Assembly: GCA_900314355.1 (NCBI GenBank)
Contig: OMUY01000016.1
Span: forward strand, 62,001-126,000
Length of the DNA: 64,000 nt
Direction of reading: 5' to 3'
Source of the DNA: an uncultured Eubacteriales bacterium
GTDB lineage: Bacteria > Bacillota > Clostridia > Oscillospirales > Acutalibacteraceae
The notes beneath the pieces were generated by a model. That model saw nothing but the letters and a program-made list of their open reading frames with translations. It made no database searches and had not been told where the DNA came from. Below are positions 46,144 through 61,901 of the stretch, piece after piece. Made by a program: the position numbers and the translations under genes. Every line of letters begins with the position of its first letter. The first letter of the stretch is position 1.

Positions 46144-46164
46144 ATATTTTATAACTAATAAAAA

Positions 46165-47766
46165 TTGGAAAAATATAATATCAGTATAGATTCGTTTAAA
46201 TATGCGTTGTCGGAAAAAGAAGCGCTTAATAATATTTCTCTCTCTGTAAAAGAGGGAGAATTTGTGATTATAGCCGGGCTCAGCGGCTCGTCAAAGACGA
46301 CGCTTATAAGGATGCTCAAAACTTCGATTTCTCCCAAAGGTGAATTTTCGGGAAAAATAGAATTCGAGGGCAGAAATTTAAATACTGTCCCTTTCAGAGA
46401 GCAGACAGAAAAAATCGGATACGTAAATCAGTTTCCCGATGCGCAGTCAGTCTCCGATTCAGTATGGCACGAGATATCTTTCGGGTGTGAAAATTTAGGC
46501 TTTCCGCCTCAAAAAATCAGAATGATGTGCGGCGAAACATGCGCTCAACTCGGCATTTCGGATCTTTGGAACAGAAAAACCGACACGCTTTCCGGGGGAG
46601 AAAAACAGCTCGTAAACCTCGCCGCCGTTATCGCAATGGCGCCGAATACTCTTCTGCTCGACGAACCGTGTTCAAATCTTGACCCTTCGTCTTCTGAAAA
46701 ATTTTATGACGCCGTAGACAAACTTAATAAAGAACAGGGGATAACGGTAATTTTATCGGAACACAATCCGGAGTATCCTCTGCGGTTTGCGGACAGAATA
46801 ATTTTTCTCGACTCCGGAAAGATATCGGGAGAAGCAAAACCGCAAAATATCATGTCAACAGAAGACAAAACAGGGTTTATTAAAGCCGTCGCGCCGGACT
46901 CGATGAAAATATTAAATCCGTTTTTATCGGGAGAACTGCCGCTTACCGTCAGGGACGCCGAAAACGACATCGAAAAATTATTAAGCGAAAATAAAATTTC
47001 CGTTTCAAAGTCGTGTTTTCCAAAACCCGAAAATGACAGCGGACAAAAAAAAGAATATGCCATAAAATTGAAAGACGTATCATTCAGGTACGAAAAAAAA
47101 GGCTGCAATATAATCGAGAATACGACATTATCTGTTAAAAAAGGAAAAATAACCGCTTTGGTCGGCGCTAACGGCTCGGGAAAATCCACGCTTTTGAAAC
47201 TCTGCGCTAAAGTTTACAAGCCGCAGAGCGGAAAACTGACTGTCAACGGAAAAACCGCGCTTCTGCCGCAGGAGCCTCTGAGTCTGTTTTTTAAGCAGAC
47301 AATAGAGGATAATTTAAAAATTTCCGCCGATGAAAAAGAAGTATACGAAATATCAGAGAAGTTCGGGATTAAAAATATTCTTTCTTCAAATCCGTTCGAC
47401 GTGTCCGGCGGAGAAATTCAGCGTGCGGCGGCGGCGAAAACATTCCTCGCGAAGCCTGATATTCTTATTCTCGACGAACCGACAAAGGGAATGGACAAGT
47501 TGTTTGTCTCTGATTTTGAAAAGATTCTCAGAGATTTCACAGACTCCGGCAGGACTGTTCTTTTAGTAACTCACGATATGAAATTTCTTTCCGAGACTGC
47601 CGATGAAATCTGCTTTTTCTTCGACAAAAATGTTTCCGGCTTGCTCGGCGCAAGAGAATTTCTGTACGAAAGCAGATTTTTCACTACCGACGCCTGCAAA
47701 ATTATGAGAAAATATAACGACGCCGTAACGGCTGATGAGGCTTTGAAAAAAATAACGAAGATATAA
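46165..47766 (+). CDS. ECF-type ATPase with two fused ABC domains (EcfA-EcfA')
   Basis: A 533-residue cytosolic protein with two ABC ATPase domains. Domain 1 (about 1-240): GLSGSSKTTLIRML, LSGGEKQLVNLAAV, LLLDEPCSNLDP, EHN switch. Domain 2 (about 290-510): GANGSGKSTLLKLC, VSGGEIQRAAAAK, LILDEPTKGMDK and THDMKF switch. The first Walker A has Ser where the Gly before the Lys is normally found (GLSGSSK instead of GxxGxGK); the second is canonical. The start is TTG 46165 without a good ribosome site, 21 nt after ecfT. It drives uptake with the T and S components. Confidence 0.92.
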   Translation: MEKYNISIDSFKYALSEKEALNNISLSVKEGEFVIIAGLSGSSKTTLIRMLKTSISPKGEFSGKIEFEGRNLNTVPFREQTEKIGYVNQFPDAQSVSDSVWHEISFGCENLGFPPQKIRMMCGETCAQLGISDLWNRKTDTLSGGEKQLVNLAAVIAMAPNTLLLDEPCSNLDPSSSEKFYDAVDKLNKEQGITVILSEHNPEYPLRFADRIIFLDSGKISGEAKPQNIMSTEDKTGFIKAVAPDSMKILNPFLSGELPLTVRDAENDIEKLLSENKISVSKSCFPKPENDSGQKKEYAIKLKDVSFRYEKKGCNIIENTTLSVKKGKITALVGANGSGKSTLLKLCAKVYKPQSGKLTVNGKTALLPQEPLSLFFKQTIEDNLKISADEKEVYEISEKFGIKNILSSNPFDVSGGEIQRAAAAKTFLAKPDILILDEPTKGMDKLFVSDFEKILRDFTDSGRTVLLVTHDMKFLSETADEICFFFDKNVSGLLGAREFLYESRFFTTDACKIMRKYNDAVTADEALKKITKI

Positions 47767-47837
47767 ACTGTCCGCCGGATTAGTTTTTCTGATAAGCATT
47801 ATTGAAAATATATCGACAGGTTTGAATTTTTGGTAAA

Positions 47838-48554
47838 ATGGTAAAAGACAGAAAGATAATCAAAACCGCAATTATTTACCTGATAGTTTTCGCCGTGTGT
47901 CCGGCGCTTGTTCTGATGTCGTATTTCCTTTTCGGAAATGACAAAATATATCTCTTCGCCTCTGTTTTATCTGTTATCGCGGTGCTTCCCGTTTTCATCA
48001 GGTTTGAAAAAAAGCAGAACGCTTCAAGAGAAGTGTCCGCCACGGCCGCGCTTACTGCGGCGGCGGTAGCGTCAAGGGCGGCGTTTTATTTTCTTCCTCA
48101 GGTTAAACCGATAGGAGCGGTTTGTATAATTGCCGCCGTTTCTTTCGGAGCGGAAGAGGGTTTTTTGGTCGGCGCGCTGTCGATGTTCCTTTCAAATTTT
48201 ATATTCGGTCAGGGCTCGTGGACGCCTTTTCAGATGCTCGGCATGGGTCTTACGTGTTTTATATGCGGTCTTATCGCTAAATCTGAAAGCCTTAAAAGAA
48301 GGAGAATTATATTTCCGTTTATACTTTCACTCGTTCAGTTTATTGTCTACGGTTTTACAGTTGATACCGACACGGCTCTTTACATATCGTCTCCATCTTT
48401 TGAAACGGTATTCTCGGTATATCTCGCCGGCGCTCCGTTCAACCTGATATTTGCCGCAACTACATTCGCCGTACTCGTTCTGATTTTAAAGCCTGTTTCA
48501 GAAAGGCTTGACAGATTGAAAAAGAAATACGGAATATTTGAGGAGAAAAATTAA
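47838..48554 (+). CDS. ECF transporter S component (corrinoid-type, inferred)
   Basis: A 238-residue membrane protein with six predicted transmembrane helices. The segment FGAEEGFLVGALSMFLSNFI followed by GQGSWTPFQMLGMGLTCFIC is characteristic of ECF S components (DUF6580/CbrT-like group), which bind the vitamin in the membrane. The substrate, cobalamin or a corrinoid precursor, follows from the riboswitch rather than from this sequence. It lies 72 nt after the ATPase and 2 nt before the lipoprotein gene. A TGGTAAAAT element overlaps its start. Confidence 0.84.
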   Translation: MVKDRKIIKTAIIYLIVFAVCPALVLMSYFLFGNDKIYLFASVLSVIAVLPVFIRFEKKQNASREVSATAALTAAAVASRAAFYFLPQVKPIGAVCIIAAVSFGAEEGFLVGALSMFLSNFIFGQGSWTPFQMLGMGLTCFICGLIAKSESLKRRRIIFPFILSLVQFIVYGFTVDTDTALYISSPSFETVFSVYLAGAPFNLIFAATTFAVLVLILKPVSERLDRLKKKYGIFEEKN

Positions 48555-48556
48555 AT

Positions 48557-49273
48557 ATGAAAAAATCGATTGCTGTATTTGCGATATTGTTGATATTCTG
48601 TTTTTCTTTTTTTTCGTGCGGAAAAAGGTCCGAAGATTATTCAACCGAAGTATATTCGGAAGAAGAAAGTTCTGCCGAAATTTTCTCATTTCGGGAAAAT
48701 AAAGAAAAAGAAACGTCAACAGCCGAAGAAAATGATTGTTCCAGACCGTCGGAAAAAAATAAAGACGAAAATAATAATCTGTTATCCGAAAAGACGACAG
48801 CGAAAAAAGAGGCGGAGCGTCATTCAGCGAAAAAATCCGTTTCAAATTGTGAAGCCGAAACGGTTAAGACAACGGAGAAAAAAAATGACGAGGTTACTGT
48901 TTCAATCAACTGTTCGACGATTTTAAACAATATGGACTCTCTTAAACACGGCAAAGAAAATTATGTTCCCGCGGACGGGTATATTCTTCCGGATACAAAA
49001 ATACAAATTGAAAAAGGCGATACGGTTTTCGATGTTCTTCAAAAAGCGTGCGATAAATATTCTATACAGCTTGAATATACTTATTCTTCGGTCTATTCAA
49101 CCGAATATATCGAGGGAATAGGCCAGCTCTACGAATTTGACTGCGGTTCATCGTCGGGCTGGATGTTCAAAGTAAACGGCAAAGTTTCCGAGTTGGGCGC
49201 GTCGTCGGTCAAATTGAAATCGGGAGACAAAGTCGAATGGGTTTACACGTGCGACATGGGAAATGATATTTAA
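48557..49273 (+). CDS. DUF4430 lipoprotein (transcobalamin-like)
   Basis: A 238-residue lipoprotein. The signal peptide ends in a lipobox-like FSFFSCGK with Cys21 as the lipidation site. A long hydrophilic Lys/Glu/Ser/Thr-rich linker (about 25-110) acts as a spacer, and a C-terminal DUF4430 domain (about 112-235) contains KGDTVFDVLQKACDKY, EGIGQLYEFDCGSSSGW and MFKVNGKVSELG. It probably presents a corrinoid-binding domain on the outer face of the membrane next to the ECF transporter; this is inferred from the operon. Confidence 0.88.
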   Translation: MKKSIAVFAILLIFCFSFFSCGKRSEDYSTEVYSEEESSAEIFSFRENKEKETSTAEENDCSRPSEKNKDENNNLLSEKTTAKKEAERHSAKKSVSNCEAETVKTTEKKNDEVTVSINCSTILNNMDSLKHGKENYVPADGYILPDTKIQIEKGDTVFDVLQKACDKYSIQLEYTYSSVYSTEYIEGIGQLYEFDCGSSSGWMFKVNGKVSELGASSVKLKSGDKVEWVYTCDMGNDI

Positions 49274-49825: not shown

Positions 49826-49854
49826 TTGACAAATATATGTATTTTTAGTATAAT
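49826..49854 (+). promoter_or_regulatory. Promoter of the TM1266-hydF-nitrogenase-like operon
   Basis: TTGACA (49826-49831), 17-bp spacer, TATAAT (49849-49854): full consensus, 32 nt before the first start codon. It is the only strong promoter I find for the next 11 genes. Confidence 0.93.
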
Positions 49855-49886: not shown

Positions 49887-50123
49887 TTGGAGACAAAAGT
49901 TGCCGTTGTGGCTATCATAGCTCACGGAAATGACAAATCGGGAGAGATCAACTCTGTTTTGCACGAGTATTCCGAATATATCATAGGCAGAATGGGAATA
50001 CCGTATGAGAAAAAGGGCGTAAATATCATCTGCATAGCGGTTGACGCTCCGCAGGACAAGATAAATTCTCTCGCCGGAAAAATAGGCAGAATAGATTCGG
50101 TTACCGCCAAAACCGTATATTGA
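49887..50123 (+). CDS. TM1266-family ACT-domain protein (iron-only hydrogenase system regulator)
   Basis: A 78-residue ACT-fold protein. VAVVAIIAHGNDKSGEINSV, then IIGRMGIPYEKKGVNII and the C-terminal AGKIGRIDSVTAKTVY match the TM1266 family, which is repeatedly found next to [FeFe]-hydrogenase maturation genes; the molecular role is not established. The start is TTG 49887, 10 nt after AGAGGG. It is separated from hydF by 215 nt that hold a large potential hairpin (GAAACCG 50244-50250 with CGGTTTC 50298-50304). Confidence 0.9.
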   Translation: METKVAVVAIIAHGNDKSGEINSVLHEYSEYIIGRMGIPYEKKGVNIICIAVDAPQDKINSLAGKIGRIDSVTAKTVY

Positions 50124-50338
50124 TATTGAATTTATATATCGTTTTTATATTAGGACTTAAATTTTTTCGGACTGGGTTTGTATTTTAGTCTTCTGTTTAA
50201 TTTATTTTTGGTTTTCTGACATAAAAATTTTATTGATATGAAAGAAACCGATGTTAAAAGATTTTTTCAAAATTATTTTTGAATTTAATATTTTGCACGG
50301 TTTCTTAAAAAATTTTTTTGAGAGGTCGTGTATTTTTT

Positions 50339-51541
50339 ATGGGATTAAACGATACGCCGTCAGGCGACAGAACTCACATTGGCTTTTTCGGACTCAGAAA
50401 CGCCGGCAAGTCAAGTCTTGTAAACGCTTTTACTTCGCAGGAATTATCGGTTGTCTCCGATATTAAGGGAACTACGACAGACCCTGTCCAAAAATCCATG
50501 GAGCTTCTGCCTCTCGGACCTGTCGTAATAATAGACACTCCAGGATATGACGACGAGGGTTCTCTCGGAGAAAAAAGAGTTCACGCCGCGAAAAGAATAC
50601 TCAACAGAACCGACATCGCGGTGCTTGTTACAGACGCTGCATCGCCTTTAACGCATCTTGAAAAAGAGCTTATTTCAATTTTTGAGGAAAAAGAAATAGC
50701 TTACGTAATCGCGGAAAATAAATCCGACCTTCTCGAAAAAATTCCTTCCGACGACGACAGGCACATATACGTTTCGGCTAAAAACAAGACGGGAATTGAA
50801 AAATTAAAAAACAAAGTCGCTTCTTTAATGAAAAATGAGCTTCTTTCAACAGACCTTCTCGCGGGGCTGGTCAAAAAAAACGAGACGGTAATTTTGGTAA
50901 CGCCTATAGACGACGCGGCTCCTAAAGGAAGGATGATTCTTCCCGAACAGATGGGAATAAGGGACGCGCTTGATTCGGACGCGATATGCGTAGTAGTAAA
51001 GGAGACGAATTTAAAGCAGGCGCTTGAACAGATACCAGGCGTATCGCTTGTCGTTACCGATTCTCAGGCATTTGAGATAGTGTCGTCATTAGTCCCCGAG
51101 AACATTCCGCTCACGTCTTTTTCCATATTAATGGCTAAATACAAAGGCTTTCTGGAAGGCGCCGTGGAAGGCGTTACGGCTATATCCGAACTTAAAGACG
51201 GAGACAATGTTCTTATTTCGGAAGGATGCACGCATCACAGACAGTGCGAGGATATAGGCACAGTTAAAATGCCCGGCTGGCTCACCGAAGCGAGCGGGGC
51301 CAAACTCAATTTCAGCTGGTCATCCGGAAGAGATTTCCCCGAGGATCTTTCAAAATACCGGCTTGTTGTTCACTGCGGAGGCTGTATGCTTCCGTCAAGA
51401 GAATTGACGTACAGAATGAAATGCGCTCACGACCAGGGCGTTCCTTTTACAAATTACGGTATATCAATAGCATATATGCACGGCATTTTAAAAAGAGCCT
51501 TATCGGTATTTCCGGAACTTGCGTCTAAGATAAAAGACTGA
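50339..51541 (+). CDS. hydF: [FeFe]-hydrogenase H-cluster maturation GTPase HydF
   Basis: A 400-residue HydF. The N-terminal Era-like GTPase domain (about 1-165) has GLRNAGKSSLVNAF (G1), DTPGYDDEG (G3) and ENKSD (G4). A dimerisation domain follows, and the C-terminal cluster domain has CTHHRQCEDIG and HCGGCMLPSREL, the CxH...HCxxC ligands of the [4Fe-4S] cluster that carries the 2Fe precursor. The start is ATG 50339; a longer frame from TTG 50318 is less likely. HydE and HydG are not in the window. It lies just upstream of the nitrogenase-like genes. Confidence 0.96.
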   Translation: MGLNDTPSGDRTHIGFFGLRNAGKSSLVNAFTSQELSVVSDIKGTTTDPVQKSMELLPLGPVVIIDTPGYDDEGSLGEKRVHAAKRILNRTDIAVLVTDAASPLTHLEKELISIFEEKEIAYVIAENKSDLLEKIPSDDDRHIYVSAKNKTGIEKLKNKVASLMKNELLSTDLLAGLVKKNETVILVTPIDDAAPKGRMILPEQMGIRDALDSDAICVVVKETNLKQALEQIPGVSLVVTDSQAFEIVSSLVPENIPLTSFSILMAKYKGFLEGAVEGVTAISELKDGDNVLISEGCTHHRQCEDIGTVKMPGWLTEASGAKLNFSWSSGRDFPEDLSKYRLVVHCGGCMLPSRELTYRMKCAHDQGVPFTNYGISIAYMHGILKRALSVFPELASKIKD

Positions 51542-51552
51542 AAACATATTAA

Positions 51553-51591
51553 CGCCGAAGTTTGAATAATCTGTTGGATTATTTGTCGGCG
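51553..51591 (+). other. Stem-loop between hydF and the nitrogenase-like genes
   Basis: Two nested arms, CGCCGA / TCGGCG (51553-51558, 51586-51591) and AATAATC / GATTATT (51565-51571, 51577-51583). There is no T run, so it is not a terminator; it may be an mRNA processing or stability element inside the operon. No promoter is seen after it. Confidence 0.65.
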
Positions 51592-51628
51592 CTGTAGTAA
51601 AACTAAAATTACAAGGAATTTAATCATC

Positions 51629-52384
51629 ATGGTAAAAATCGCTGTTTACGGAAAAGGCGGAATAGGAAAATCCACGACAGTTTCCAATATGTCGGCATGT
51701 CTCGCGGACAAGGGATTAAAGGTTCTTCAAATCGGCTGCGACCCTAAAGCGGATTCCACTTTGTCGCTTCACGGAGGAGTAAGGCTGCCGTCCGTCCTCG
51801 ATTTGATAAGAGAAAAAGACGATGATTTTACGCTCGACGATATGATAATCAAAGGCTACAAGGGAGTTCTCTGCGCTGAGGCCGGCGGGCCGGTGCCTGG
51901 AGTCGGGTGCGCGGGCAGAGGAGTAATCACCGCTCTTGAAAAGCTTCAGGATAAAGGCGTTTACGAAAAATACCATCCCGACGTCGTTTTCTACGATGTC
52001 CTCGGCGACGTTGTCTGCGGAGGATTTTCAATGCCGATGAGAAAAGGATACGCGGATAAAATATACATTGTCACATCGGGCGAGAATATGTCAATTTACG
52101 CTGCCGCCAATATAGCTGCGGCTTCAAGAAATTTCGCGTCGAGAGGATACGCCCCGCTCGGAGGATTTATTCTCAACAGGAGAAATGTGAAAAACGAGGA
52201 TGAAAAAGTAAAAGAGCTTTGCGCTGATTTCGATTCAAAGATAATTGGAGCGATAGACCGCTCTCAACTGATACTTACAGCAGAGGAAAAGGGGAAAACG
52301 GCTGTGGAGCTTTTCCCCGATTCCGATATAGCGGACGAATACCGCATTCTCGCGGAAAATATTCTTCTCGATTTAAAAAAATGA
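51629..52384 (+). CDS. NifH-like iron protein (nitrogenase reductase family)
   Basis: A 251-residue P-loop ATPase of the NifH/BchL/CfbC family. [12 protein letters not shown] (P-loop, residues 6-17), [10 protein letters not shown] (switch-like, 36-44), [10 protein letters not shown] with Cys94 and [17 protein letters not shown] with Cys130: both cluster-ligating cysteines that bridge the [4Fe-4S] cluster of the homodimer are present, as is the Arg after Cys94. It should deliver electrons in an ATP-dependent way to the component-1-like proteins encoded next. It is shorter than true NifH (about 290) and has a reduced C-terminus. The start is ATG 51629 after CAAGGAAT. A true nitrogenase is unlikely as NifB, NifEN and Mo genes are absent here. 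Confidence 0.92.
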
Positions 52385-53718
52385 TAATAAGCGCAAACAA
52401 TCAAAAACGCTCTGTGCCGGAAATAAAAATATCTGATTTCAAATATCCGACGTCTTTTAAAGAAACACTCGATTATTCTTCTCCGGCGAGGGGAAAATGG
52501 AACATAGTTCAGACTGCTTTTTTGATTCCCGAATCCCACCAGATATATATCTGCGCTCAGGGATGTCTCAGGGGAGTGGTTTTAACGGCAGCCGAGATGA
52601 ATTGTATGGACAGGCTTTCATGGATATCCGTATGTGAAAATGATTTTTTTGACGGCGGACTTGAAGACGACGTTATTTCGGGAGCAGACGACATAATTTC
52701 CAACATGGACAAAAAACCGAAAGCCGTAGTGCTCGTCTACTCCTGCATGCACCTTTTCGCCGGTTCGGATATAGAAATGATCACAGACTCCATGAATAAA
52801 AAATTTCCCGATATTAAATTTATAACGGGATATATGCAGCCTGTCAGAAGAAAATCATTATCTCCCGATGAGCTTATGAGGTGTCAGATATATTCCTGCC
52901 TTGAAAAAACCGGGTGCGACGAAAATTCAGTAAATATTATCGGCAGCAATTTCAAAACAGACGACGATTCCGAGCTGAAAATTTCTTTGAAAAACGCCGG
53001 AATAAATATAAGGGATATCACCGAAGCCAAAACATACGGCGAATTTCTCGAAATGGGCAATTCTCGGCTTAATATATTGTACGATAAAGCCGCAATTCCG
53101 GCGGCGAAACAGTTGAAAAAAAGACTCGGAACGGATTTTGTTTATATCCCGAGAACTTACGATTTTGAAAAGACCGAAGAAAATTACAAATTGCTTTTTT
53201 CCAAACTCAATCTGCCTCTGCCGGACTTTTCCGAATACAAAGAAAGAGCGGCAAAATCCGTTATAAACGCGAAAAAGATTTTAGGTTCCGTTCCGATTGA
53301 AATTGACGCTTTGTCTACAACAGCGCCTGTGTCGCTTGCTCTTTTTCTCTGTGAAAATAACTTCAATGTGACAAAAATATATCTTGACGCTGTCTCATCT
53401 GACGAAGAAAAGGCGTTTGACAAACTCAAAAAAATATCTCCGGAAATATCCGTTTCTCCTCTGCACGACCCGGCTATGAGATTTATGAATACTATCTCGG
53501 CCGAAAGTAAAAAGAATAAAATCCTGGCGTTCGGACAGCAGGCCGCTTATTTTGCGGATACCGGTTATTTCGTAAATACTGTTGAGGGAGAAGGACGCTA
53601 CGGATTTTCGGAAATTGAAAAGACGATGAATCTTTTGACCGACGCGTTCTTAAACGAAAAGGATATGCTCAAAACCGTTTCAATAAAGGGATTGGAGTGT
53701 GATTCCTGCTTATGCTGA
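52381..53718 (+). CDS. Nitrogenase component 1-like protein, D-type copy 1
   Basis: A 445-residue member of the nitrogenase component 1 superfamily (NifD/NifK/NifE/NifN/BchN-like Rossmann fold). Cluster-type cysteines: [10 protein letters not shown] (Cys58, Cys62) and [15 protein letters not shown] (Cys122), in the positions of the P-cluster/[4Fe-4S] ligands. A segment [19 protein letters not shown] is shared with the third component-1-like protein of the operon, showing they are paralogues. The C-terminus ends CDSCLC (CxxCxC), not seen in the paralogue. It overlaps nifH-like and the next gene by 4 and 7 nt. Typical FeMo-cofactor ligands cannot be assigned. Confidence 0.85.
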
Positions 53719-54866
53719 GACACGCCTCGATAACGTCTATTTACGCCGCCGACACTTCTGGAGTCGCGTCAGCGCTTTTTGAGCTCGGCGGACTTACGGT
53801 AATTCACGATCCGTCGGGATGTAATTCTACATATACTACTCACGATGAGCCGAGATGGGCTGATTTTGACTCTATGTTCTACGTCTCCGGACTTACGGAA
53901 AAAGACGCGATAATGGGAAATGACGAGAAAGTCATATCCGATCTCGCATATACGGCAGAACGTTTAAATCCCGAATTTATAGCGATATGCGGCTCTCCGA
54001 TGCCGATGATGGTCGGCACGGATTTCGACGCCCTCGCTTATGAAACGGAAAAAAGAACAGGTATAAAGACGTTCGCTTTTCATACAAACGGAATGAACGA
54101 CTATATTTCCGGCGAGGAGGAAGCTTTTTACGAACTCGTAAAATATTATTCAATAGAAAAACATTCAGAAGAAAGCGGCGATTTTCTCGTAAATGTCATA
54201 GGCGCGACACCTATTGATATGACTGATTATTCTCACATCAAATCAATTTCCGATTTTCTTGAAAAACACAAAATGAAATTAAATTCATGCCTTTCAATGG
54301 GCTGCAAAATTCCGGACATTGAGAAAATTCCGGACGCGGACGCGAATTTGGCGGTATCATATTCGGGAATAAAAGCGTGTGAATATCTGAATAAAAAATT
54401 CGGTCAGAATTACGCGGCGGGTCTTCCTTTCGGCGAAAAATTTTCCGAAAAGCTTGCCGACGCTTTGAAATCAGGAAAAAATATAAATCTGTTCAACCGA
54501 GATTTCGGTTCCGGTTTTCCCGATATCGTAATTGAGGGCGAGTCCGTTTTTTCTCTTTCGCTTTCATCGGCGCTTTATGACGATTTCAATATCGGTTCGT
54601 CCGTAATCTGCCCGTTGAAAACAGATAAAAATTTTCTCGGGAAAAATGATTTCTCAGTATCCGATGAAAATGAAGAAAAAAAGATATACAAAAATTTTAA
54701 GACAGCAGTGGCGGACAATCTTTATAAACCTATCATTCCGAAAAACTGCCGTTTCGTATCCCTGCCGTCCGTCGGATTTTCCGGCAGATGCTTTCTCGGA
54801 CAGATACCCGATTTAAGCAGAAAATCGGATTTTCAAAATCTCGTAAAAAAAATAATTTCTAAATAA
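53712..54866 (+). CDS. Nitrogenase component 1-like protein, K-type copy 1
   Basis: A 384-residue component-1-like protein, the partner of the preceding gene by position. VIHDPSGCNSTYTTHDEPRW holds Cys37 and AICGSPMPMMVGTDFDAL Cys93, both at expected cluster positions. It is clearly paralogous to the fourth component-1-like protein: shared segments include ALFELGG / VLYELGG, HDEPRW / FDEPRW, EKDAIMGNDE / DMDAIMGRDE and VGTDFDAL / IGTDFDSL. It overlaps the preceding gene by 7 nt and is 8 nt from the next. Confidence 0.84.
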   Translation: MLRHASITSIYAADTSGVASALFELGGLTVIHDPSGCNSTYTTHDEPRWADFDSMFYVSGLTEKDAIMGNDEKVISDLAYTAERLNPEFIAICGSPMPMMVGTDFDALAYETEKRTGIKTFAFHTNGMNDYISGEEEAFYELVKYYSIEKHSEESGDFLVNVIGATPIDMTDYSHIKSISDFLEKHKMKLNSCLSMGCKIPDIEKIPDADANLAVSYSGIKACEYLNKKFGQNYAAGLPFGEKFSEKLADALKSGKNINLFNRDFGSGFPDIVIEGESVFSLSLSSALYDDFNIGSSVICPLKTDKNFLGKNDFSVSDENEEKKIYKNFKTAVADNLYKPIIPKNCRFVSLPSVGFSGRCFLGQIPDLSRKSDFQNLVKKIISK

Positions 54867-54874
54867 TATCGTCT

Positions 54875-56146
54875 ATGAATAATGCAGAATATTTCACAAC
54901 CGGCTGTCTTGCCGAATATGGACCCGACATGATTCCCGACTTGTACAAAAGCGCAAGTCATCTTATTTATTCGTCTCCCGCATCGCTCGCGTTCAATTCG
55001 CCAGGCGCGTCGGGATTCGGAGTAAAAAGAGCGGGACTTTCCGTTCCTGGCTCTGTAATGCTTCTTGTTTCGCCCGGATGCTGCGGCAGAAACACGACGC
55101 TTGAAAGCGTAAGAGACGGCTATTCGGACAGGTTTTATTTTCTCGAGCTTGATGACACCGATATAATAACGGGCAGGTATCAGGAAAAAATTCCGCGCGC
55201 GTGCCGTGAAATAGCCGGGCAGAGAGATGAAAAACCGTCGGCTGTCATGATATGCGTAACGTGTGTAGACGCTCTTCTCGGTACAGACGCGGAAGCTCTT
55301 GTCAAAGAATCGGAAAATGAATGCGGTCTGCCGGTCGCCGCCTGCTATATGTACGCTTTGACGAGGGATTCAACTCTGCCGCCAATGGTATCTGTCAGAA
55401 AATCGGTCTATTCGCTTTTGAAAAAAAAGGAAAGACGCCCCGATGAGATTAATATTCTCGGATATTTTTCGCCGGTAGACAGGTCGAGCGAGCTTTTTGA
55501 AATACTCGAAAGCGCGGGAATAAAAAAAATTCGTGAAATTTCAAGGTGTAAAGATATAAGCGAATATTATGACATGGCGAGGGCGAATTTTTCACTCGTT
55601 CTCGATTCAAGCTCAAATTACGCCGCCGACGATATGATGAAGCGTCTCGGCATTCCGTATATCGAAATTGTCAGAACATACGATATAGATAAGATAGATA
55701 AAACTTACAGATCTCTTTGTTCCGCGATAGGCGCGAAGGCTGAAACCGAAAAATATTATTCCTCCGCAAAATCGGAAATAGAAAAGGCAAAGCGGAAAAA
55801 TCCCGTTTTTTCTGTAGGCGAGACTTTAAACGCGGATGCGTTTGATTTGACTTTGTCTTTATTGAGGTACGGGTTTAAAGTGTCGGAAATTTTCGGTACG
55901 CCTTCAAAATACAATTACGGTATGATAAAAAAAATCGCCGCGATTTCTCCTGATACGAAAGTATATTCGAATCTTTCACCGTCGATGCTTTTCTACGATG
56001 AGAATGAGAATAAATGCGACATATCTGTCGGAAAAGACGCTTCTTATTATCATTCAAACGCGGAAAAAATATTGTGGGCTGATGAAATACAGCCGTTCGG
56101 ATTTGCAGGAGTAAGAAAGCTTTTTGAAGAAATAAACAGTCTATGA
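54875..56146 (+). CDS. Nitrogenase component 1-like protein, D-type copy 2
   Basis: A 423-residue paralogue of the D-type copy 1. Cys residues at cluster-type positions: TTGCLAEYGP (Cys11), LLVSPGCCGRNTT (Cys69, Cys70) and ICVTCVDALLGTD (Cys127, Cys130). The three-cysteine arrangement (11, 69, 130) recalls the N subunits of chlorophyllide-type reductases, where three Cys and one ligand from the partner hold a [4Fe-4S] cluster (inference). Shared segments with copy 1 include IEIVRTYDIDKIDKTYRSL. It overlaps the next gene by 4 nt. Confidence 0.84.
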   Translation: MNNAEYFTTGCLAEYGPDMIPDLYKSASHLIYSSPASLAFNSPGASGFGVKRAGLSVPGSVMLLVSPGCCGRNTTLESVRDGYSDRFYFLELDDTDIITGRYQEKIPRACREIAGQRDEKPSAVMICVTCVDALLGTDAEALVKESENECGLPVAACYMYALTRDSTLPPMVSVRKSVYSLLKKKERRPDEINILGYFSPVDRSSELFEILESAGIKKIREISRCKDISEYYDMARANFSLVLDSSSNYAADDMMKRLGIPYIEIVRTYDIDKIDKTYRSLCSAIGAKAETEKYYSSAKSEIEKAKRKNPVFSVGETLNADAFDLTLSLLRYGFKVSEIFGTPSKYNYGMIKKIAAISPDTKVYSNLSPSMLFYDENENKCDISVGKDASYYHSNAEKILWADEIQPFGFAGVRKLFEEINSL

Positions 56147-57186
56147 AAAATTTATACAAAATGATCTCTCCGTTTTCTCCCGACCAGTCGGGGGCGGTAT
56201 CTGTTCTCTATGAGCTTGGTGGCGTAGTCGCTGTTCTCGACGCCGGCGGATGCGCCGGAAATATATGCGGATTTGACGAACCGAGATGGATGACAAAAAA
56301 ATCTGCCGTATTTTCCGCCGGTCTGAGGGATATGGACGCGATTATGGGCAGGGACGAGCTTCTCGCCGAAAAACTCAAAGCGGCGTGCGAAAAAATTGAC
56401 CCTGAATTTTGCGCCGTCGTAGGGACCCCGGCGCCTGCAATAATCGGAACCGATTTTGACTCTTTAAGACAGATGATTGAAGAGATGACAGGCAAAAAAA
56501 CGGTATGTGTAGAGACGACAGGAACAAAATATTTTGATTCGGGCGAGGAAAAAGCCTACCTTGACCTTTTCAAAACATTCGCCGAAAAGAAATTTGACGC
56601 CGTAGAGGGAAAAACAGGCGTAGTCGGAGTGACGCCTCTTGAGTTTTCCTGCCTTGACGCGGACAAAAAAATAAGGAATGTAAAGGGCTTTGAAAACGCC
56701 GTATGCTTCGGATATAATTCCGGGCTTGACGAAATCGTAAAAGCGTCAGAATGTGAAAAGCTTGTCGCGGCTTCTCCGTCGGCTGTAAAAGCGTGCGAAT
56801 ATCTCAGCGCAAAATTTGATATTCCGTATGAAAAAGACCGCATATACATCCCCGAAAAAATAAAAAATAAATGCGAAAATATCAAAGATAAAAAAGTTCT
56901 TGTAATTACCGGGCAATTCATTTTTGAAAAGTTAAAAGATATTTTAAATAAAAACAACAATGAAGTGACTTTCGCCTCGTTTTTCATGACAAAAGGAAAA
57001 ACGGATTATGATATTATAAAACTTTCGGACGAAGATTCTCTGACAGAATTGATCTCATCTTCGGAATTTGACGAGGTTATAGGCGATGCCGCTTTTGAAA
57101 AAATATACAGAAAATTCGCATTGAATAAAACAAGCGAATTTACGGATTTTCCTTCGTTTTCGGTATCGGGACGTCTGACGGATTAA
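56143..57186 (+). CDS. Nitrogenase component 1-like protein, K-type copy 2
   Basis: A 347-residue paralogue of the K-type copy 1. VLDAGGCAGNICGFDEPRW holds Cys37 and Cys42; the second cluster Cys of copy 1 (Cys93, in ICGSP) is replaced by Val (VVGTP), while a Cys appears three residues earlier (EFCAVV). The cluster environment has therefore changed. The C-terminal part is shorter than in copy 1. It ends 46 nt before hypF and has no terminator behind it. Confidence 0.84.
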   Translation: MKNLYKMISPFSPDQSGAVSVLYELGGVVAVLDAGGCAGNICGFDEPRWMTKKSAVFSAGLRDMDAIMGRDELLAEKLKAACEKIDPEFCAVVGTPAPAIIGTDFDSLRQMIEEMTGKKTVCVETTGTKYFDSGEEKAYLDLFKTFAEKKFDAVEGKTGVVGVTPLEFSCLDADKKIRNVKGFENAVCFGYNSGLDEIVKASECEKLVAASPSAVKACEYLSAKFDIPYEKDRIYIPEKIKNKCENIKDKKVLVITGQFIFEKLKDILNKNNNEVTFASFFMTKGKTDYDIIKLSDEDSLTELISSSEFDEVIGDAAFEKIYRKFALNKTSEFTDFPSFSVSGRLTD

Positions 57187-57232
57187 AATAAAGGCGGAAA
57201 AACCGAACGACGTTTTTTGAATATAATAAATT

Positions 57233-59539
57233 ATGAAAACATATCTCATCAGGCTTTACGGAATAGTTCAGGGCGTCGGCTTCAGACCGTTCGTCAAAAA
57301 TCTCGCCGACTCTTATCTTGTAAAGGGAACAGTATCGAACAAAGGCTCATATGTCGAAATATACGCGCAGGGTGAAAATGCGGAAAATTTCATGTCAGAC
57401 CTTACGGTGAAAAATCCGGAACGTTCGATTATTTTAAAAAAAGACGTAAAGACTCTTGATCTCGATAAATATTCGTCGTTTGAAATAATCGGTTCCGAAC
57501 ACGAGACCGGCGATATTTTCGTCTCGCCCGACATAGCGACTTGTCCGGAATGCAAAAGGGAACTGTATGACAAGACCAACAGACGCTACCTTCATCCGTT
57601 TATCAACTGCACTCAGTGCGGACCGAGACTTACTATTCTCGATTCCATGCCTTACGACCGCGAGCGCACTTCAATGGCGGAATTTCCGATGTGCGAAAAG
57701 TGTGAAAAGGAATATTATGACCCGTCGTCAAGACGTTTTGACGCTCAGCCGGTATGCTGCAACGACTGCGGCCCAAAGCTTTATATAGTCGGAAAAGACA
57801 TAACCGGTCTCGACGCCGTCAGATATTCGAGAGAGCTTATAATGTCCGGAAAAATCGTCGCGGTCAAAGGAATAGGCGGGTTTCATCTCTGCTGCGACGC
57901 AAAAAACAGCGAGGCTGTAATCAGACTCAGAAAACTTAAAAACAGACCGCAGAAACCGTTTGCCGTGATGATGAAAGATATGGAAACGGCGGAGAAATAC
58001 TGTGAGATTTCCAAAGAGGAAAAAAAACTTCTCGACTCATATCAAAAGCCGATAATATTACTGAAAAAGAAAAAGAGCTTTAAATTTGAAGCCGTCGCTC
58101 CCGGCAATCCATTTCTGGGAGTAATGCTTCCGTATGCGCCTGTTCAGATGCTTCTTTTCTCTCTTCCAAATTCCGATTCAAATAATACTGTCGCCGACGA
58201 CGGTATGACCGACTGTTTCGTCATGACGAGCGGAAACGTTTCGGGTGCGCCGATTTGCAGGGACGACGAGACAGCTTTGGAGGAGATTGGATCTTTCTGC
58301 GACGCTGTTTTGTCTCACGACAGAAAAATCAGAATAAGAGCCGACGATTCCGTTGTGTCGTTCTTTTTTGGCAAACCGTATATGATAAGACGTTCAAGGG
58401 GATACGCTCCTCTTCCCGTCATCACTTCATTTTCTTCCGCACGCAGAGTTCTGGCAATAGGAGGCGAGCTTAAAAACACTTTCTGCTTAGCCCAAAACGA
58501 TATGTATTACATGTCGCCTTATGTCGGAGATTTAGCGGATATCAGAACCGTCAACGCGCTTGAGGAGACTGTGGGACGAATGGAAGAGCTTCTTGAAATT
58601 GAGCCCGATACGGTAGTATGTGACAAACATCCGCTCTACAACAGCGTTTCTGCCGCCGAAAAAACCTGGCTTCCTTTGGTCAGGGTTCAGCACCACTACG
58701 CCCATATTTTATCTTGCATGGCGGAAAATGATTTAAGAGGCGCGGTTTTGGGGATTTCATTTGACGGAACAGGCTACGGAGACGACAAAACCGTATGGGG
58801 CGGAGAATTTTTTGTCTGCGATGAGAAAAATTACAAGAGAGCGGGACATATCTCACCTTTTTATCAGGTCGGCGGAGATCTTTCCGCGAAAGAGGGTTTC
58901 AGAATAGCCGCCGCGATGACTGAAAATTACGAAACGGCCGAAAAACTCGGTCTCTGCGACAAAAAAACTTTCGACTTGATAAAAGTCTGCGCTCAAAAAA
59001 ATATTAATTCCGTTAAATCTACAAGCGCCGGCAGGCTTTTCGACGCTGTATCGGCAATTCTCGGAATAAAAAGAAAATCGACGTTTGAATCCGAAGCGGC
59101 TTCGTCTCTTCAATCTTTCGCCGAGACAGATTCCGACGGAAACATAACGGATCTTGAGCCTTGTCTTTCCGAAAAAGATATAGAAAAATATTCGTTCCTT
59201 TCCGGGCGGGGATCGGACGGACTGTGCGAAGCAAAAACGGATATTATTTTTAAAGATATCACGAATAAAGCTCTCGAAAACTATGACAGGCATTACCTCG
59301 CTTCTCTTTTTCATAAAATGCTCGCGTCGTCTGTAGTAAACGTCTGCATTAATGTAAGAGAAAAGAGCCGTGTGAACAGAGTATGTCTTTCCGGAGGAGT
59401 ATTTCAGAATATATATTTTCTGTCTCTTGTAAAGTCCGGTCTTGAAAAATCCGGTTTTGACGTATATATTCATTCTTTGATTCCGCCTAACGACGGCGGC
59501 ATTGCTCTCGGACAGGCTTATTACGGCATGAATATGTAA
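57233..59539 (+). CDS. hypF: Carbamoyltransferase HypF
   Basis: A 768-residue [NiFe]-hydrogenase cyanide-ligand maturation protein. Order: acylphosphatase domain (1-90, LYGIVQGVGFRPFV), two zinc-finger motifs (CPECKREL... NCTQCGPRL and CEKCEKEYY... CCNDCGPKL, about 105-185), YrdC-like domain (about 195-380) and Kae1-like carbamoyltransferase domain (about 400-768, VQHHYAHILSCMAEN, GISFDGTGYGDD, SGGVFQN). It turns carbamoyl phosphate and ATP into a carbamoyl group for HypE. There is no ribosome site; TATAAT at 57222-57227 ends 5 nt before the ATG, so a leaderless start is possible. The gene follows the nitrogenase-like genes closely. Confidence 0.97.
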   Translation: MKTYLIRLYGIVQGVGFRPFVKNLADSYLVKGTVSNKGSYVEIYAQGENAENFMSDLTVKNPERSIILKKDVKTLDLDKYSSFEIIGSEHETGDIFVSPDIATCPECKRELYDKTNRRYLHPFINCTQCGPRLTILDSMPYDRERTSMAEFPMCEKCEKEYYDPSSRRFDAQPVCCNDCGPKLYIVGKDITGLDAVRYSRELIMSGKIVAVKGIGGFHLCCDAKNSEAVIRLRKLKNRPQKPFAVMMKDMETAEKYCEISKEEKKLLDSYQKPIILLKKKKSFKFEAVAPGNPFLGVMLPYAPVQMLLFSLPNSDSNNTVADDGMTDCFVMTSGNVSGAPICRDDETALEEIGSFCDAVLSHDRKIRIRADDSVVSFFFGKPYMIRRSRGYAPLPVITSFSSARRVLAIGGELKNTFCLAQNDMYYMSPYVGDLADIRTVNALEETVGRMEELLEIEPDTVVCDKHPLYNSVSAAEKTWLPLVRVQHHYAHILSCMAENDLRGAVLGISFDGTGYGDDKTVWGGEFFVCDEKNYKRAGHISPFYQVGGDLSAKEGFRIAAAMTENYETAEKLGLCDKKTFDLIKVCAQKNINSVKSTSAGRLFDAVSAILGIKRKSTFESEAASSLQSFAETDSDGNITDLEPCLSEKDIEKYSFLSGRGSDGLCEAKTDIIFKDITNKALENYDRHYLASLFHKMLASSVVNVCINVREKSRVNRVCLSGGVFQNIYFLSLVKSGLEKSGFDVYIHSLIPPNDGGIALGQAYYGMNM

Positions 59540-59623
59540 AAAGAAACCATAGTTAAATATTTAATTAACATTAATAAGTGATAATATAAAATTTGAAAAG
59601 CAAATTTCGGAGGAAAATTAAAA

Positions 59624-59836
59624 ATGTGTGTAGGTATTCAGGCAAAGGTTTTGTCGGTTGATGACGACACAGCCGTAGTTGACGCCACAGGGGCGAAAAG
59701 GGAAGTTTCGTCGGCTCTGCTTGACGATCTGGAGCCGGGCGATTACGTTATGGTTCACGCAGGCGTAGCTATAGCGAAGATTACATCGTCTTCAGACGAA
59801 GAGACCGAAGAAATTCTTTCCGATAAAAAATCATGA
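59624..59836 (+). CDS. hypC: Hydrogenase maturation chaperone HypC/HupF
   Basis: A 70-residue HypC. The N-terminal MCVGIQAKVL gives the essential Cys2 (canonical MCLAIPGKV), and GDYVMVHAGVAIAKI is the conserved second motif. HypC shuttles the Fe(CN)2CO unit, with HypD, to the target large subunit. Strong ribosome site CGGAGGAAA. It overlaps hypD by 4 nt. Confidence 0.95.
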   Translation: MCVGIQAKVLSVDDDTAVVDATGAKREVSSALLDDLEPGDYVMVHAGVAIAKITSSSDEETEEILSDKKS

Positions 59837-60879
59837 ACGAAAAATTAATCGAAGCTAAAAATTATCTCGAGACATACGACGGCAGACCGTTAAGGATAAT
59901 GGAAGTCTGCGGCACTCATACGCACGAGATTTTCCGTCTCGGAATAAGGAAAATACTTTCCGAAAAAATTAAATTGATTTCCGGTCCGGGCTGTCCCGTT
60001 TGTGTAACGGGAGTCGGATATATAGACAAGGCTGTTTTTCTCGCGTTTGAAAGAAATGCAATAATCTGCACGTTCGGCGATCTAATAAGAGTTCCGGGCA
60101 CAGAGATGTCTTTGGGCGAAGCTAAAGCGAAAGGCGCGGACGTCAGAATGGTGTACACCCAGTCTGACGCTGTTAATATTGCGAAAGAAAATCCCGATAA
60201 GCAGGTTGTTTTTCTTTCCGTCGGATTTGAAACGACTACCCCCGGAGCTTGTCTCGCGGTCAAAAAAGCGAAAAATGAGAATGTCGGTAATTTTTCTCTT
60301 CTCATGTCAAATAAGACTATGCCCAACGCATATGAGGCTCTTAAAAACAGCGCGGACGCGTTTCTCTACCCGGGTCACGTCAACGCTATAACAGGTACTG
60401 CGACGCTCGAAAAGCTTAAAAATGAAGGCGTTTCCGGAGTCGTGACGGGATTTACGGCAGGCGAACTTTTGACCGCGCTCAGCGTCACCGTGAAAAATCT
60501 GCAAAAAGACGAGCCGTTTTTTGAAAACTGCTATCCGAGAGTAGTGAGACCTGAGGGAAATATAAAGGCTCAAAAATTGATGTCTGAAACTTTGATTCCC
60601 TGCGACGCTGAATGGAGAGGTCTCGGAATTATTCCAGGATCGGGCGTTAAACTTAACGACTCATATTCGGAATTTGACGCCGAAAAAAAGCTGTCTGTCC
60701 CCGATATCAAAGGCAGACCGAATCCGGCTTGCAGATGCGGAGATATTTTGAGAGGCGGCTGCCTGCCGAACGAATGTCCGCTGTACGGAAAAATCTGCAA
60801 TCCCTTACATCCCGTAGGCGCTTGCATGGTGTCGTCCGAGGGCGCCTGCTCAGCTTATTACAAATATTCTCAAATTTAA
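59833..60879 (+). CDS. hypD: Hydrogenase maturation protein HypD
   Basis: A 348-residue iron-sulfur protein that assembles Fe(CN)2CO with HypC. VCGTHTHEIFRLGIR (catalytic CGTHxH), SGPGCPVCVTG (redox Cys pair), GFETTTPG and YPGHVNAITG are all HypD signatures; the [4Fe-4S] cluster ligands are in the C-terminal CRCGDILRGGCLPNECPLYG and PLHPVGACMVSSEGACSA. Full length and intact. Confidence 0.97.
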   Translation: MNEKLIEAKNYLETYDGRPLRIMEVCGTHTHEIFRLGIRKILSEKIKLISGPGCPVCVTGVGYIDKAVFLAFERNAIICTFGDLIRVPGTEMSLGEAKAKGADVRMVYTQSDAVNIAKENPDKQVVFLSVGFETTTPGACLAVKKAKNENVGNFSLLMSNKTMPNAYEALKNSADAFLYPGHVNAITGTATLEKLKNEGVSGVVTGFTAGELLTALSVTVKNLQKDEPFFENCYPRVVRPEGNIKAQKLMSETLIPCDAEWRGLGIIPGSGVKLNDSYSEFDAEKKLSVPDIKGRPNPACRCGDILRGGCLPNECPLYGKICNPLHPVGACMVSSEGACSAYYKYSQI

Positions 60880-60896
60880 AATCAGAAAAAAAGAAA

Positions 60897-61901
60897 ATGG
60901 AAGAATTTATAACATTAAATCACGGCGCGGGCGGAAAACAGACGTCCGAGCTTATTGACAAAGTTTTTAAAAAACATTTTGAAAATCCGTGTCTTACGTC
61001 CGACGACGCGTCTGTTTTAAGCGTCGGAAATGAAAAAATCGCTTTTACAACCGACGGATTCATCGTATCTCCGTACAAATTCAACGGCGGAAATATCGGC
61101 AAACTTTCTATCTGCGGAACTGTAAACGACCTCGCTTGCATGGGCGCCGAACCGCTTTATATTGCCACCGCTTTCGTTATCGAAGAAGGTTTTCCGATTT
61201 CTGAACTTGAGGAGATAACGTCTTATATGGAAAAAACAGCCGCCGAAGCAGGAATAAAATTCGCCGCCGGCGACACAAAAGTAGCGGGGAAAGGTCAGGT
61301 AGACAAAATATTTATCACGACCACCGGAATAGGCAGAATTACGCAACGCGTAAATCTTTCCGGGGCGAACGCGAAGCCGGGAGACAAAGTTATAGTTACG
61401 AGAGACATCGGCCGCCACGGATCGGCAATACTTATCGCTCGAAACGAATTCGGAATTGACTCCGACATAAAATCAGACTGCGCGCCGCTTTGGGGAACAG
61501 TGAAAGATATGCTTTCTGTTTCAGAAAATATTCACACAATCAGAGACTCCACAAGGGGCGGCGTCGGTACCGTTTTATATGAAATAGCCGGTCAGTCAAA
61601 TGCGGGAATTGTCCTTGACGAGGACAAAATTCCCGTTGACGGCAAAGTCTCCGGCTTATGCGGAATGCTCGGCTTAAATCCGCTTTACCTCGCGTGCGAG
61701 GGTACTTTAGTCGTAATATGCCCGCCGGAGGACGCGGATAAACTGATTGAAACGCTTCATAAAGGCGAGTATTCCGAAAACGCGGCTGTCATCGGTGAAG
61801 TTGTATCCGATTACCCCGGAAAAGTCATTATGAATACGGAAATCGGCTCCCAGACTCTTCTGCCCGAACCACAGGGCGAGCTTCTTCCGAGAATTTGCTG
61901 A
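60897..61901 (+). CDS. hypE: Hydrogenase maturation protein HypE
   Basis: A 334-residue protein of the PurM/AIR synthetase superfamily that dehydrates the carbamoyl group on its C-terminal Cys to a thiocyanate, the source of the CN ligands. The N-terminal LNHGAGGKQTSELI and FTTDGFIVSPYKFNGGNIGK, and GDTKVAGKGQVDKIFI, are typical. The protein ends LLPRIC with the essential C-terminal Cys. The start ATG 60897 fits the family start (MEEFITLNHGAGG); upstream extension to 60729 lies inside hypD. HypA and HypB are not encoded next to it. It is the last gene of the long operon. Confidence 0.96.
   Translation: MEEFITLNHGAGGKQTSELIDKVFKKHFENPCLTSDDASVLSVGNEKIAFTTDGFIVSPYKFNGGNIGKLSICGTVNDLACMGAEPLYIATAFVIEEGFPISELEEITSYMEKTAAEAGIKFAAGDTKVAGKGQVDKIFITTTGIGRITQRVNLSGANAKPGDKVIVTRDIGRHGSAILIARNEFGIDSDIKSDCAPLWGTVKDMLSVSENIHTIRDSTRGGVGTVLYEIAGQSNAGIVLDEDKIPVDGKVSGLCGMLGLNPLYLACEGTLVVICPPEDADKLIETLHKGEYSENAAVIGEVVSDYPGKVIMNTEIGSQTLLPEPQGELLPRIC

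Follow-up and report, generated by a model that had tools for sequence, protein, structure and literature searches.

What does a bacterium make with nitrogenase-like proteins that are encoded side by side with maturation proteins of both [NiFe]- and [FeFe]-hydrogenases? The question is raised by a stretch of 64,000 nucleotides (hereafter, the window) from an uncultured Eubacteriales bacterium of the Acutalibacteraceae (assembly GCA_900314355.1, here G000; contig OMUY01000016.1, positions 62,001 to 126,000 of the forward strand). Eleven genes at 49887–61901, all on the + strand, encode a TM1266-family protein, HydF, a NifH-like ATPase (H), four relatives of nitrogenase component 1 (D1, K1, D2, K2), HypF, HypC, HypD and HypE. 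A sequence-only reading had described this one-direction cluster, and profile searches against Pfam and NCBIfam, with bit scores compared to the model cut-offs, confirmed the families of all eleven genes at the proposed places.

HydG normally makes CO and cyanide from tyrosine. HydE and HydF finish the [2Fe] unit of the H-cluster and hand it over, which is the one job of these two proteins that we know of. In [NiFe] maturation, HypF and HypE form cyanide on the C-terminal cysteine of HypE from carbamoyl phosphate, and HypC and HypD build Fe(CN)2CO. NifH-like proteins use ATP to donate electrons of low potential; NifH and nitrogenases also reduce CO2 to CO. To our knowledge, HydG has been regarded as indispensable for the H-cluster, and the Hyp proteins as exclusively dedicated to [NiFe]-hydrogenases. 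The same division of labor, with HydG supplying CO and cyanide and the Hyp proteins making the Fe-CN/CO unit, is given in passages of PMC9431212.

Our analysis suggests that the operon is probably a second, HydG-independent route to the H-cluster of [FeFe]-hydrogenase. On balance, the nitrogenase relatives appear to be maturases of the hydrogenase, with a sister version of the system that would import an iron complex via a FecBCD-type transporter. The weight lies in the match of D1 to genomes with HydF and without HydG, together with a fixed gene block, rather than in absence alone. The association of these genes is directly observed in the genomes; from it we infer the chemistry. The sequence-only reading had offered two functions. 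Maturation of a hydrogenase-like target gained support from the presence of HydF, HydE and the [FeFe]-hydrogenase domain, mostly without HydG or a complete [NiFe] enzyme; a new reductase found little positive evidence, as D1 and D2 show no cysteine at the aligned NifE cofactor-ligand position. No description of the combined nitrogenase-like, Hyp and Hyd genes was found among the open-licence papers searched, and passages of PMC9431491 and PMC12578642 have no bearing on the system.

A conserved gene block and its two builds

Relatives of D1 comprise 442 proteins at E ≤ 0.001. A scan of genome contigs kept 80 loci of 521 confirmed relatives, on which the locus figures rest; gene content was read by tblastn with the window proteins. 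Some loci are duplicates (L094, L121 and L192; L106 and L122), and the 87 loci correspond to 85 distinct ones, the set of 85 rows to 84.

Two builds of the locus were found. The Hyp type has the order TM1266-hydF-hydE-H1-D1-K1-H2-D2-K2-hypF-hypC-hypD-hypE, where H1 and H2 are NifH-like genes; it occurs at 44 of the 87 loci, window included, and its upstream trio is not always complete. The importer type, TM1266-fecD-ATPase-second TM1266-like-hydE-H1-D1-K1-fecB-hydF, occurs with variants at 34 of the 87 (32 of the 85 distinct loci). The other 9 loci are incomplete at the end of the available sequence or lack both modules. Among the neighbors, one member of each family was identified as HydE (TIGR03956, 557 bits), a FecCD permease (PF01032) and Peripla_BP_2 (PF01497).

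The exact ten-gene order from H1 to hypE was observed at 29 of the 34 D2 loci with at least 8.9 kb after D1. Of the five exceptions, four lack some or all of hypC-hypE in the available stretch and one lacks H1. Loci with this order come from Bacillota, Lentisphaerota and Spirochaetota and mostly stand beside TM1266, hydF or hydE; the full block from H1 to hypE is also carried by the Clostridium-like loci L041 and L050. More generally, TM1266, hydF or hydE is present at 80 of 84 distinct loci (81 of 85 rows), and the organisms named in the trees described below belong to Bacillota, Lentisphaerota, Spirochaetota and Synergistota. H2 lies between K1 and D2 in all 43 fetched D2 loci; the window has no H2 at this place, and the rest of G000 was not searched for it. 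Since the arrangement recurs in loci of other genomes, a chance neighborhood of the hyp and nitrogenase-like genes, which the sequence-only reading had considered, is ruled out.

As the Hyp type is defined partly by the Hyp genes at the locus, the informative evidence for an exchange of modules comes from 19 importer-type genomes without hypD and three genomes with hypD elsewhere. In each of the 19 D1 genomes that lack hypD, the FecBCD-type importer takes the place of the Hyp block next to D1; where a locus has neither module (L070, L118, L119), hypD is present at another place in the genome.

The importer at 34 loci also accords with another explanation, namely that the compound reduced by the D/K complexes is an imported iron chelate, corrinoid or tetrapyrrole and that the hydrogenase genes are mere neighbors under one regulator. 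On plasmids of Sporomusa and Treponema (L005, L006), a NifH gene and two component-1 genes stand beside the same importer type, in surroundings of about 9 kb that are free of hydrogenase maturation genes. This explanation seems quite unlikely: it leaves unexplained the fixed hypFCDE block, the occurrence of Hyp genes in genomes that lack a complete [NiFe] enzyme, and the restriction of D1 in its order to genomes with HydF and without HydG.

Additional open reading frames were observed within two Ruminococcus loci. In Ruminococcus albus (L087:6316–8150), three small frames that look alike by eye lie between hydF and hydE, two of them with membrane stretches. A frame of 133 residues lies between K2 and hypF in Ruminococcus bicirculans (L109:15540–15941), and one of the same length is found there in L051.

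Co-occurrence with HydG and hydrogenases

Maturation and hydrogenase genes were counted in 57 genomes with D1, made up of seven from the order of the window's bacterium and 50 of the 80 loci, with the other 30 loci outside this count. G039 and G236 are the same genome, which leaves 56 distinct genomes and 18 distinct importer-type ones. The [FeFe]-hydrogenase domain PF02906 was found in all 57, with a weak match in G148 (1.8e-12). HydG scored over the cut-off in four genomes and was missing at this threshold in 53; hypD was found in 38. The four genomes with HydG are all of the importer type and have no hypD, therefore HydG occurs in none of the 38 genomes with hypD. A complete [NiFe] large subunit (PF00374) is present in none of the 57, three of which match only the first 68–69 of the 508 positions.

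The window's genome agrees with this pattern. Its assembly (2.23 Mb, 106 contigs, 86% complete) has four PF02906 places, of which one encodes a HydA with all three motifs that we take to mark the H-cluster and three do not. HydF is encoded in the window and HydE on contig C9 (TIGR03956, 574 bits). HydG was not found over the cut-off in this 86% complete assembly, the best match being 58 bits at the HydE gene. PF00374 is likewise not found in G000. The operon resembles the HypABCDEF system of [NiFe] maturation in that its HypFCDE proteins keep their catalytic cysteines and are expected to form Fe(CN)2CO, and differs from it in the lack of a complete [NiFe] large subunit in D1 genomes and of genes for HypA, HypB and an endopeptidase in the operon, the only part of the genome searched for these three. 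A role of the hyp genes in serving a [NiFe]-hydrogenase was rejected, given the absence of PF00374 from G000 and the partial matches in three of the 57 genomes. G239 has, besides the hypD on contig C16, a second copy at a distance of about 6 kb from a partial match to PF00374 (C65:16899–24225), and may thus possess a [NiFe]-like system of its own.

The same counts bear on the reductase offered by the sequence-only reading, in which the D/K proteins are themselves the target and have an Fe-CN/CO active site made by HypFCDE and delivered by HydE and HydF. It draws on the same gene set, and two complete component-1 pairs exceed the apparent need of one maturation step. With PF02906 in 57 of 57 genomes and HydG absent in 53, the hydrogenase is itself a target for HydE and HydF, and one whose ligands must be supplied; moreover, importer-type genomes have D1 and K1 without hypD. 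We regard this reductase as unlikely.

The distribution of D1 was also surveyed in 197 genomes of the order. PF02906 was found in 191, HydF in 92, HydG in 81 and a strong D1 match in seven. HydF and HydG occur together in 80 genomes; G156, with HydG and a partial HydF, was counted in the group of 105 without HydF. D1 is present in 7 of the 12 genomes with HydF and without HydG, in none of the 80 with both, and in none of the 105 without HydF (Fisher 3.9e-10, or 9e-8 within the HydF-containing genomes, for related genomes without correction for kinship). Ten genomes matched D1, and three weak matches (G084, G150, G184; E 1e-15 to 1e-42), two of them in genomes with HydG, were left out of the seven. 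Five genomes with HydF and without HydG have no D1 (G033, G051, G052, G104 and G122). Among them, G033 has many component-1 genes (19 matches), and G052, 60% complete, has Hyp genes and no component-1 gene that could be found. Among the 17 hypD genomes of the order only G000 has a strong D1 match, and no nitrogenase-like gene was found in the fetched 4–19.5 kb around the 16 other hypD loci. The order-level survey alone is thus misleading, the Hyp link being visible only in the wider scan of genome contigs.

A replacement of HydG by another tyrosine lyase, such as ThiH, with hypFCDE as a relic of a lost [NiFe]-hydrogenase, could be suggested by the 20 of 57 D1 genomes that have a sub-cut-off HydG match (1e-50 to 1e-67), and an atypical HydG-like radical S-adenosylmethionine (SAM) protein has been proposed for acetogens in passages of PMC9431212. 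Both matches that were examined, one of them from Ruminococcus albus AR67, proved to be ThiH (495–506 bits, cut-off 380). In 33 of the 57 genomes, the window's included, there is no HydG match better than 1e-25, and ThiH in the place of HydG was rejected as a general answer. Relics would hardly keep a single gene order and active-site cysteines over three phyla. Taken as a whole, this explanation is highly improbable.

Nitrogenase-like and maturation proteins of the operon

The four component-1 proteins score 59–102 bits to PF00148 (cut-off 28.6). Among the NCBIfam nitrogenase-superfamily models that listed H or a component-1 protein, none was matched above its cut-off. For the Mo, V and Fe nitrogenases (NifH, NifD/K and VnfD models), H reaches 322 bits of the required 394, and the D/K proteins at most 45 of 427–823. 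For dark-operative protochlorophyllide oxidoreductase (DPOR), chlorophyllide oxidoreductase (COR) and CfbCD, K1 scores 61 bits to BchB (490) and 34 to CfbD (268), and H scores 321 bits to CfbC (402) and 198 to BchL (345).

The component-1 tree was a quick one (88 rows, LG+G4) with long reference branches and without COR, CfbD, proven methylthio-alkane reductase (Mar), Vnf or Anf sequences. D1, D2, K1 and K2 each form a single group (99–100 by the Shimodaira-Hasegawa-like approximate likelihood ratio test, SH-aLRT). The nearest reference sequences are the FecBCD-linked sets of the Sporomusa and Treponema plasmids: D1 and D2 join the Treponema subunit at SH-aLRT 100, and K1 and K2 join its partner at 100. 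These sets differ from the operon in having no hydrogenase maturation genes close by. The D/K groups are apart from NifD, NifK, NifE, NifN and a NifB-linked Treponema set, and also from BchN and BchB, whose branches are too long for firm placement. The D/K proteins are thus outside the available reference groups, and the outcome that the sequence-only reading had named as refuting, a place inside a characterized group with known substrate, did not occur in this tree, in which several characterized groups are absent. In the NifH-like tree, H1 is one clade (100/99) and H2 another (82/89), with the window H being of the H1 type.

The NifB-linked set, on Treponema saccharophilum plasmid pTS2 (L169:5821–22482), includes a radical SAM gene, NifB/NifX-family genes, nifH, two component-1 pairs and an ABC transporter. 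It is possibly methylthio-alkane-reductase-like and lay apart from the D/K groups in the tree, which has no proven MarDK. The Mar-like group IV-A genes described in passages of PMC10418091 are a different set.

Residue conservation was counted with the window H in both the H1 and H2 row sets, and with the window twice in H1, D1 and K1. H has the features of a NifH-like ATPase of the superfamily, with a Walker A motif and two cluster cysteines: among the H1 rows (66 distinct), Cys94 and Cys130 are present in 69 of 69 and GKGGIGKS in 68 of 69, and among the H2 rows both cluster cysteines and GKGGIGKS are present in 45 of 45. Cys58, Cys62 and Cys122 are invariant in D1, Cys37 in K1 (80 of 80 rows, 77 distinct), Cys69, Cys70, Cys127, Cys130 and Cys225 in D2 (37 of 37), and Cys37 and Cys42 in K2 (32 of 32). 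The window copy deviates at otherwise conserved residues (Gln44, Gly150 and Ala216 in D1, Ala19 in K1, Leu32 in K2) and for this reason may be specialized.

The predicted model of D1 shows the component-1 fold, and that of D2 (AlphaFold2) has a predicted local distance difference test score of 84.8. In a profile search of PDB, D1 matched NifE at 1e-8. In profile alignments to NifE, with a weak match for D1 (probability 12%), D1 Cys122 and D2 Cys70 and Cys130 fall on NifE cysteines that we take to be cluster ligands, and neither D1 nor D2 has a cysteine at the aligned cofactor-ligand position; by eye, no cofactor-ligand cysteine is seen in K1 or K2. The cofactor ligands of nitrogenase are NifD Cys275 and His442. 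The D/K complexes would therefore have an Fe-S cluster and an open cavity like DPOR or NifEN, rather than a nitrogenase active site. They differ from NifEN and DPOR in forming separate supported groups in a tree with long reference branches, in the apparent lack of a NifE-type cofactor cysteine in D1 and D2, and in the link to hydrogenase genes. For the unlikely reductase, the extra invariant Cys127 and Cys225 of D2 are a point in favor, and the lack of a cysteine at the aligned NifE-type cofactor-ligand position of D1 and D2 is a point against.

The active residues of the maturation proteins are conserved: the C-terminal PRIC of HypE in 29 of 29, Cys2 of HypC in 32 of 32, Cys26, Cys54 and Cys57 of HypD in 34 of 34, the CxxxCxxC motif of HydE in 42 of 42, and four cysteines of HydF in all 34 aligned sequences, window included. 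In the HypD tree, a branch with support 99/92 divides the D1-linked proteins (33 rows) from 15 other HypD of the order, which is a further difference from [NiFe] maturation. The HypD of G052 is 58% identical to that of the window, yet does not group with the D1-linked proteins. The operon is similar to HydE-HydF-HydG maturation in having HydF, HydE and a TM1266 regulator, with conserved cysteines, and a HydA target in the genome; it differs in that HydG is mostly absent and nitrogenase-like genes, together with Hyp genes or an importer, take its place.

The positions of all eleven genes proposed by the sequence-only reading stood (Table 1), and two starts were corrected, hydF and hypE each probably beginning at an ATG within a longer open frame. 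The strong promoter that it had placed upstream is the only full consensus match in the stretch. The gene pairs H/D1, D1/K1, D2/K2 and hypC/hypD overlap by 4–7 bases. Gaps are 8 bases for K1-D2, 17 for hypD-hypE, 46 for K2-hypF, 84 for hypF-hypC, 87 for hydF-H and about 215 for TM1266-hydF. This spacing fits a single transcription unit.

Table 1. Promoter and genes of the operon in the window
Feature	Position	Strand	Evidence
Sigma-70-type promoter, TTGACA-17-TATAAT	49826..49854	+	12/12 consensus positions; consensus match alone
TM1266-family small protein, putative regulator of iron-only hydrogenase system	49887..50123	+	TIGR03959, 102.9 bits (cut-off 60.8)
hydF, H-cluster maturation GTPase and scaffold	50339..51541	+	TIGR03918, 523.6 bits (cut-off 325.55); probable start ATG 50339, open frame from 50318
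H, H1-type NifH-like ATPase, predicted electron donor	51629..52384	+	PF00142, 299 bits
D1, component-1 subunit of new branch	52381..53718	+	PF00148; no NCBIfam model matched
K1, partner of D1	53712..54866	+	PF00148, 97 bits
D2, component-1 subunit found with Hyp genes	54875..56146	+	PF00148, 101.7 bits
K2, partner of D2	56143..57186	+	PF00148, 59 bits
hypF, carbamoyltransferase (cyanide ligand precursor)	57233..59539	+	TIGR00143, 748.4 bits (cut-off 466.1)
hypC, Fe(CN)2CO chaperone	59624..59836	+	PF01455, 80.8 bits (cut-off 28.5)
hypD, Fe(CN)2CO scaffold	59833..60879	+	TIGR00075, 396.8 bits (cut-off 192.8)
hypE, thiocyanate-forming dehydratase, C-terminal PRIC	60897..61901	+	TIGR02124, 415.7 bits (cut-off 251.6); probable start ATG 60897

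The genes next after hypE are rpsB and tsf, named by eye from their translations. Upstream of the operon, at 45250–49270, the window contains a membrane protein that looks CbiQ-like (no firm Pfam match), a duplicated ABC ATPase, an energy-coupling factor (ECF) S-component and a DUF4430 protein. Together they resemble an ECF transporter that includes a transcobalamin-like component.

A possible route to the H-cluster

H1-D1-K1, HydE and HydF are common to both builds, and H2-D2-K2 with the Hyp genes is exchanged for the importer; H2-D2-K2 is therefore best placed with the Hyp proteins, and H1-D1-K1 beyond the step at which the pathways of the two types converge. We propose that HypFCDE would supply iron with cyanide and CO. 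H2-D2-K2 would act together with HypCD and might convert CO2 to CO or replace a cyanide by CO. H1-D1-K1, in both types, would take up the iron complex into the fold's open substrate cavity and reduce it to a low-valent state for the H-cluster precursor, and HydE (encoded elsewhere in G000) and HydF would finish the precursor and load HydA. In the importer type, an iron-chelate importer would provide the compound on which H1-D1-K1 acts; in the window, the two D/K pairs would share one H. The precursor needs low-valent iron but HypCD yields Fe(II)(CN)2CO, a difference that an ATP-driven nitrogenase-like reductase could bridge.

Acetogens offer a parallel. According to passages of PMC9431212, HydG is absent in five of eight acetogens and HypCDEF occurs without HypAB in five of the eight, HydG being reported in C. 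autoethanogenum, C. drakei and C. scatologenes; the authors consider several scenarios and give no straightforward explanation for the missing HydG. The odd maturase combination is the same as in the operon, and nitrogenase-like maturases are not proposed in those passages. Relatives of D2 were identified by sequence match in C. ragsdalei and C. drakei; the same passages report no HydG in C. ragsdalei and HydG in C. drakei. In Ruminococcus albus, AR67 and KH2T6 (L087/G229 and L104/G235) have loci of the Hyp type and no HydG over the cut-off, and the [FeFe]-hydrogenase HydABC of the species has been isolated and characterized, the strain not being stated in the passages cited (PMC6288185).

Several points weigh against a HydG-independent route. 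Importer-type genomes have no hypD, and Hyp is therefore not needed wherever D1 and K1 occur. HydG is kept in four D1 genomes, and C. drakei, with a D2 relative and a reported HydG, indicates that Hyp-type species with HydG may exist outside the 57. The lack of HydG in G000 is weak evidence alone, as the assembly is 86% complete. In three genomes of the order that have HydF and are 97–99% complete (G051, G104, G122), HydG and component-1 proteins are both missing. Furthermore, 100 of the 105 genomes without HydF still have PF02906, and all 12 HydA sampled there have intact H-cluster motifs; lack of HydG alone is thus no proof of a substitute, and PF02906 in 57 of 57 genomes is not specific. 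The Fisher values overstate independence, since the genomes are related. Chemically, HypCD gives two cyanides per iron and the H-cluster has one per iron, so that a step is missing. The proposed mechanism is read from gene evidence.

If the operon does provide a second route to the H-cluster, it would unite the cofactor worlds of nitrogenase, [FeFe]-hydrogenase and [NiFe]-hydrogenase in one pathway. It could account for the HydG and HypAB genes not found in several Clostridium acetogens, as given in passages of PMC9431212, and would open HydG-free laboratory routes to [FeFe]-hydrogenase. The finding is relevant to hydrogen producers of the rumen and gut such as Ruminococcus, and a function would be assigned to a large branch of the nitrogenase superfamily.

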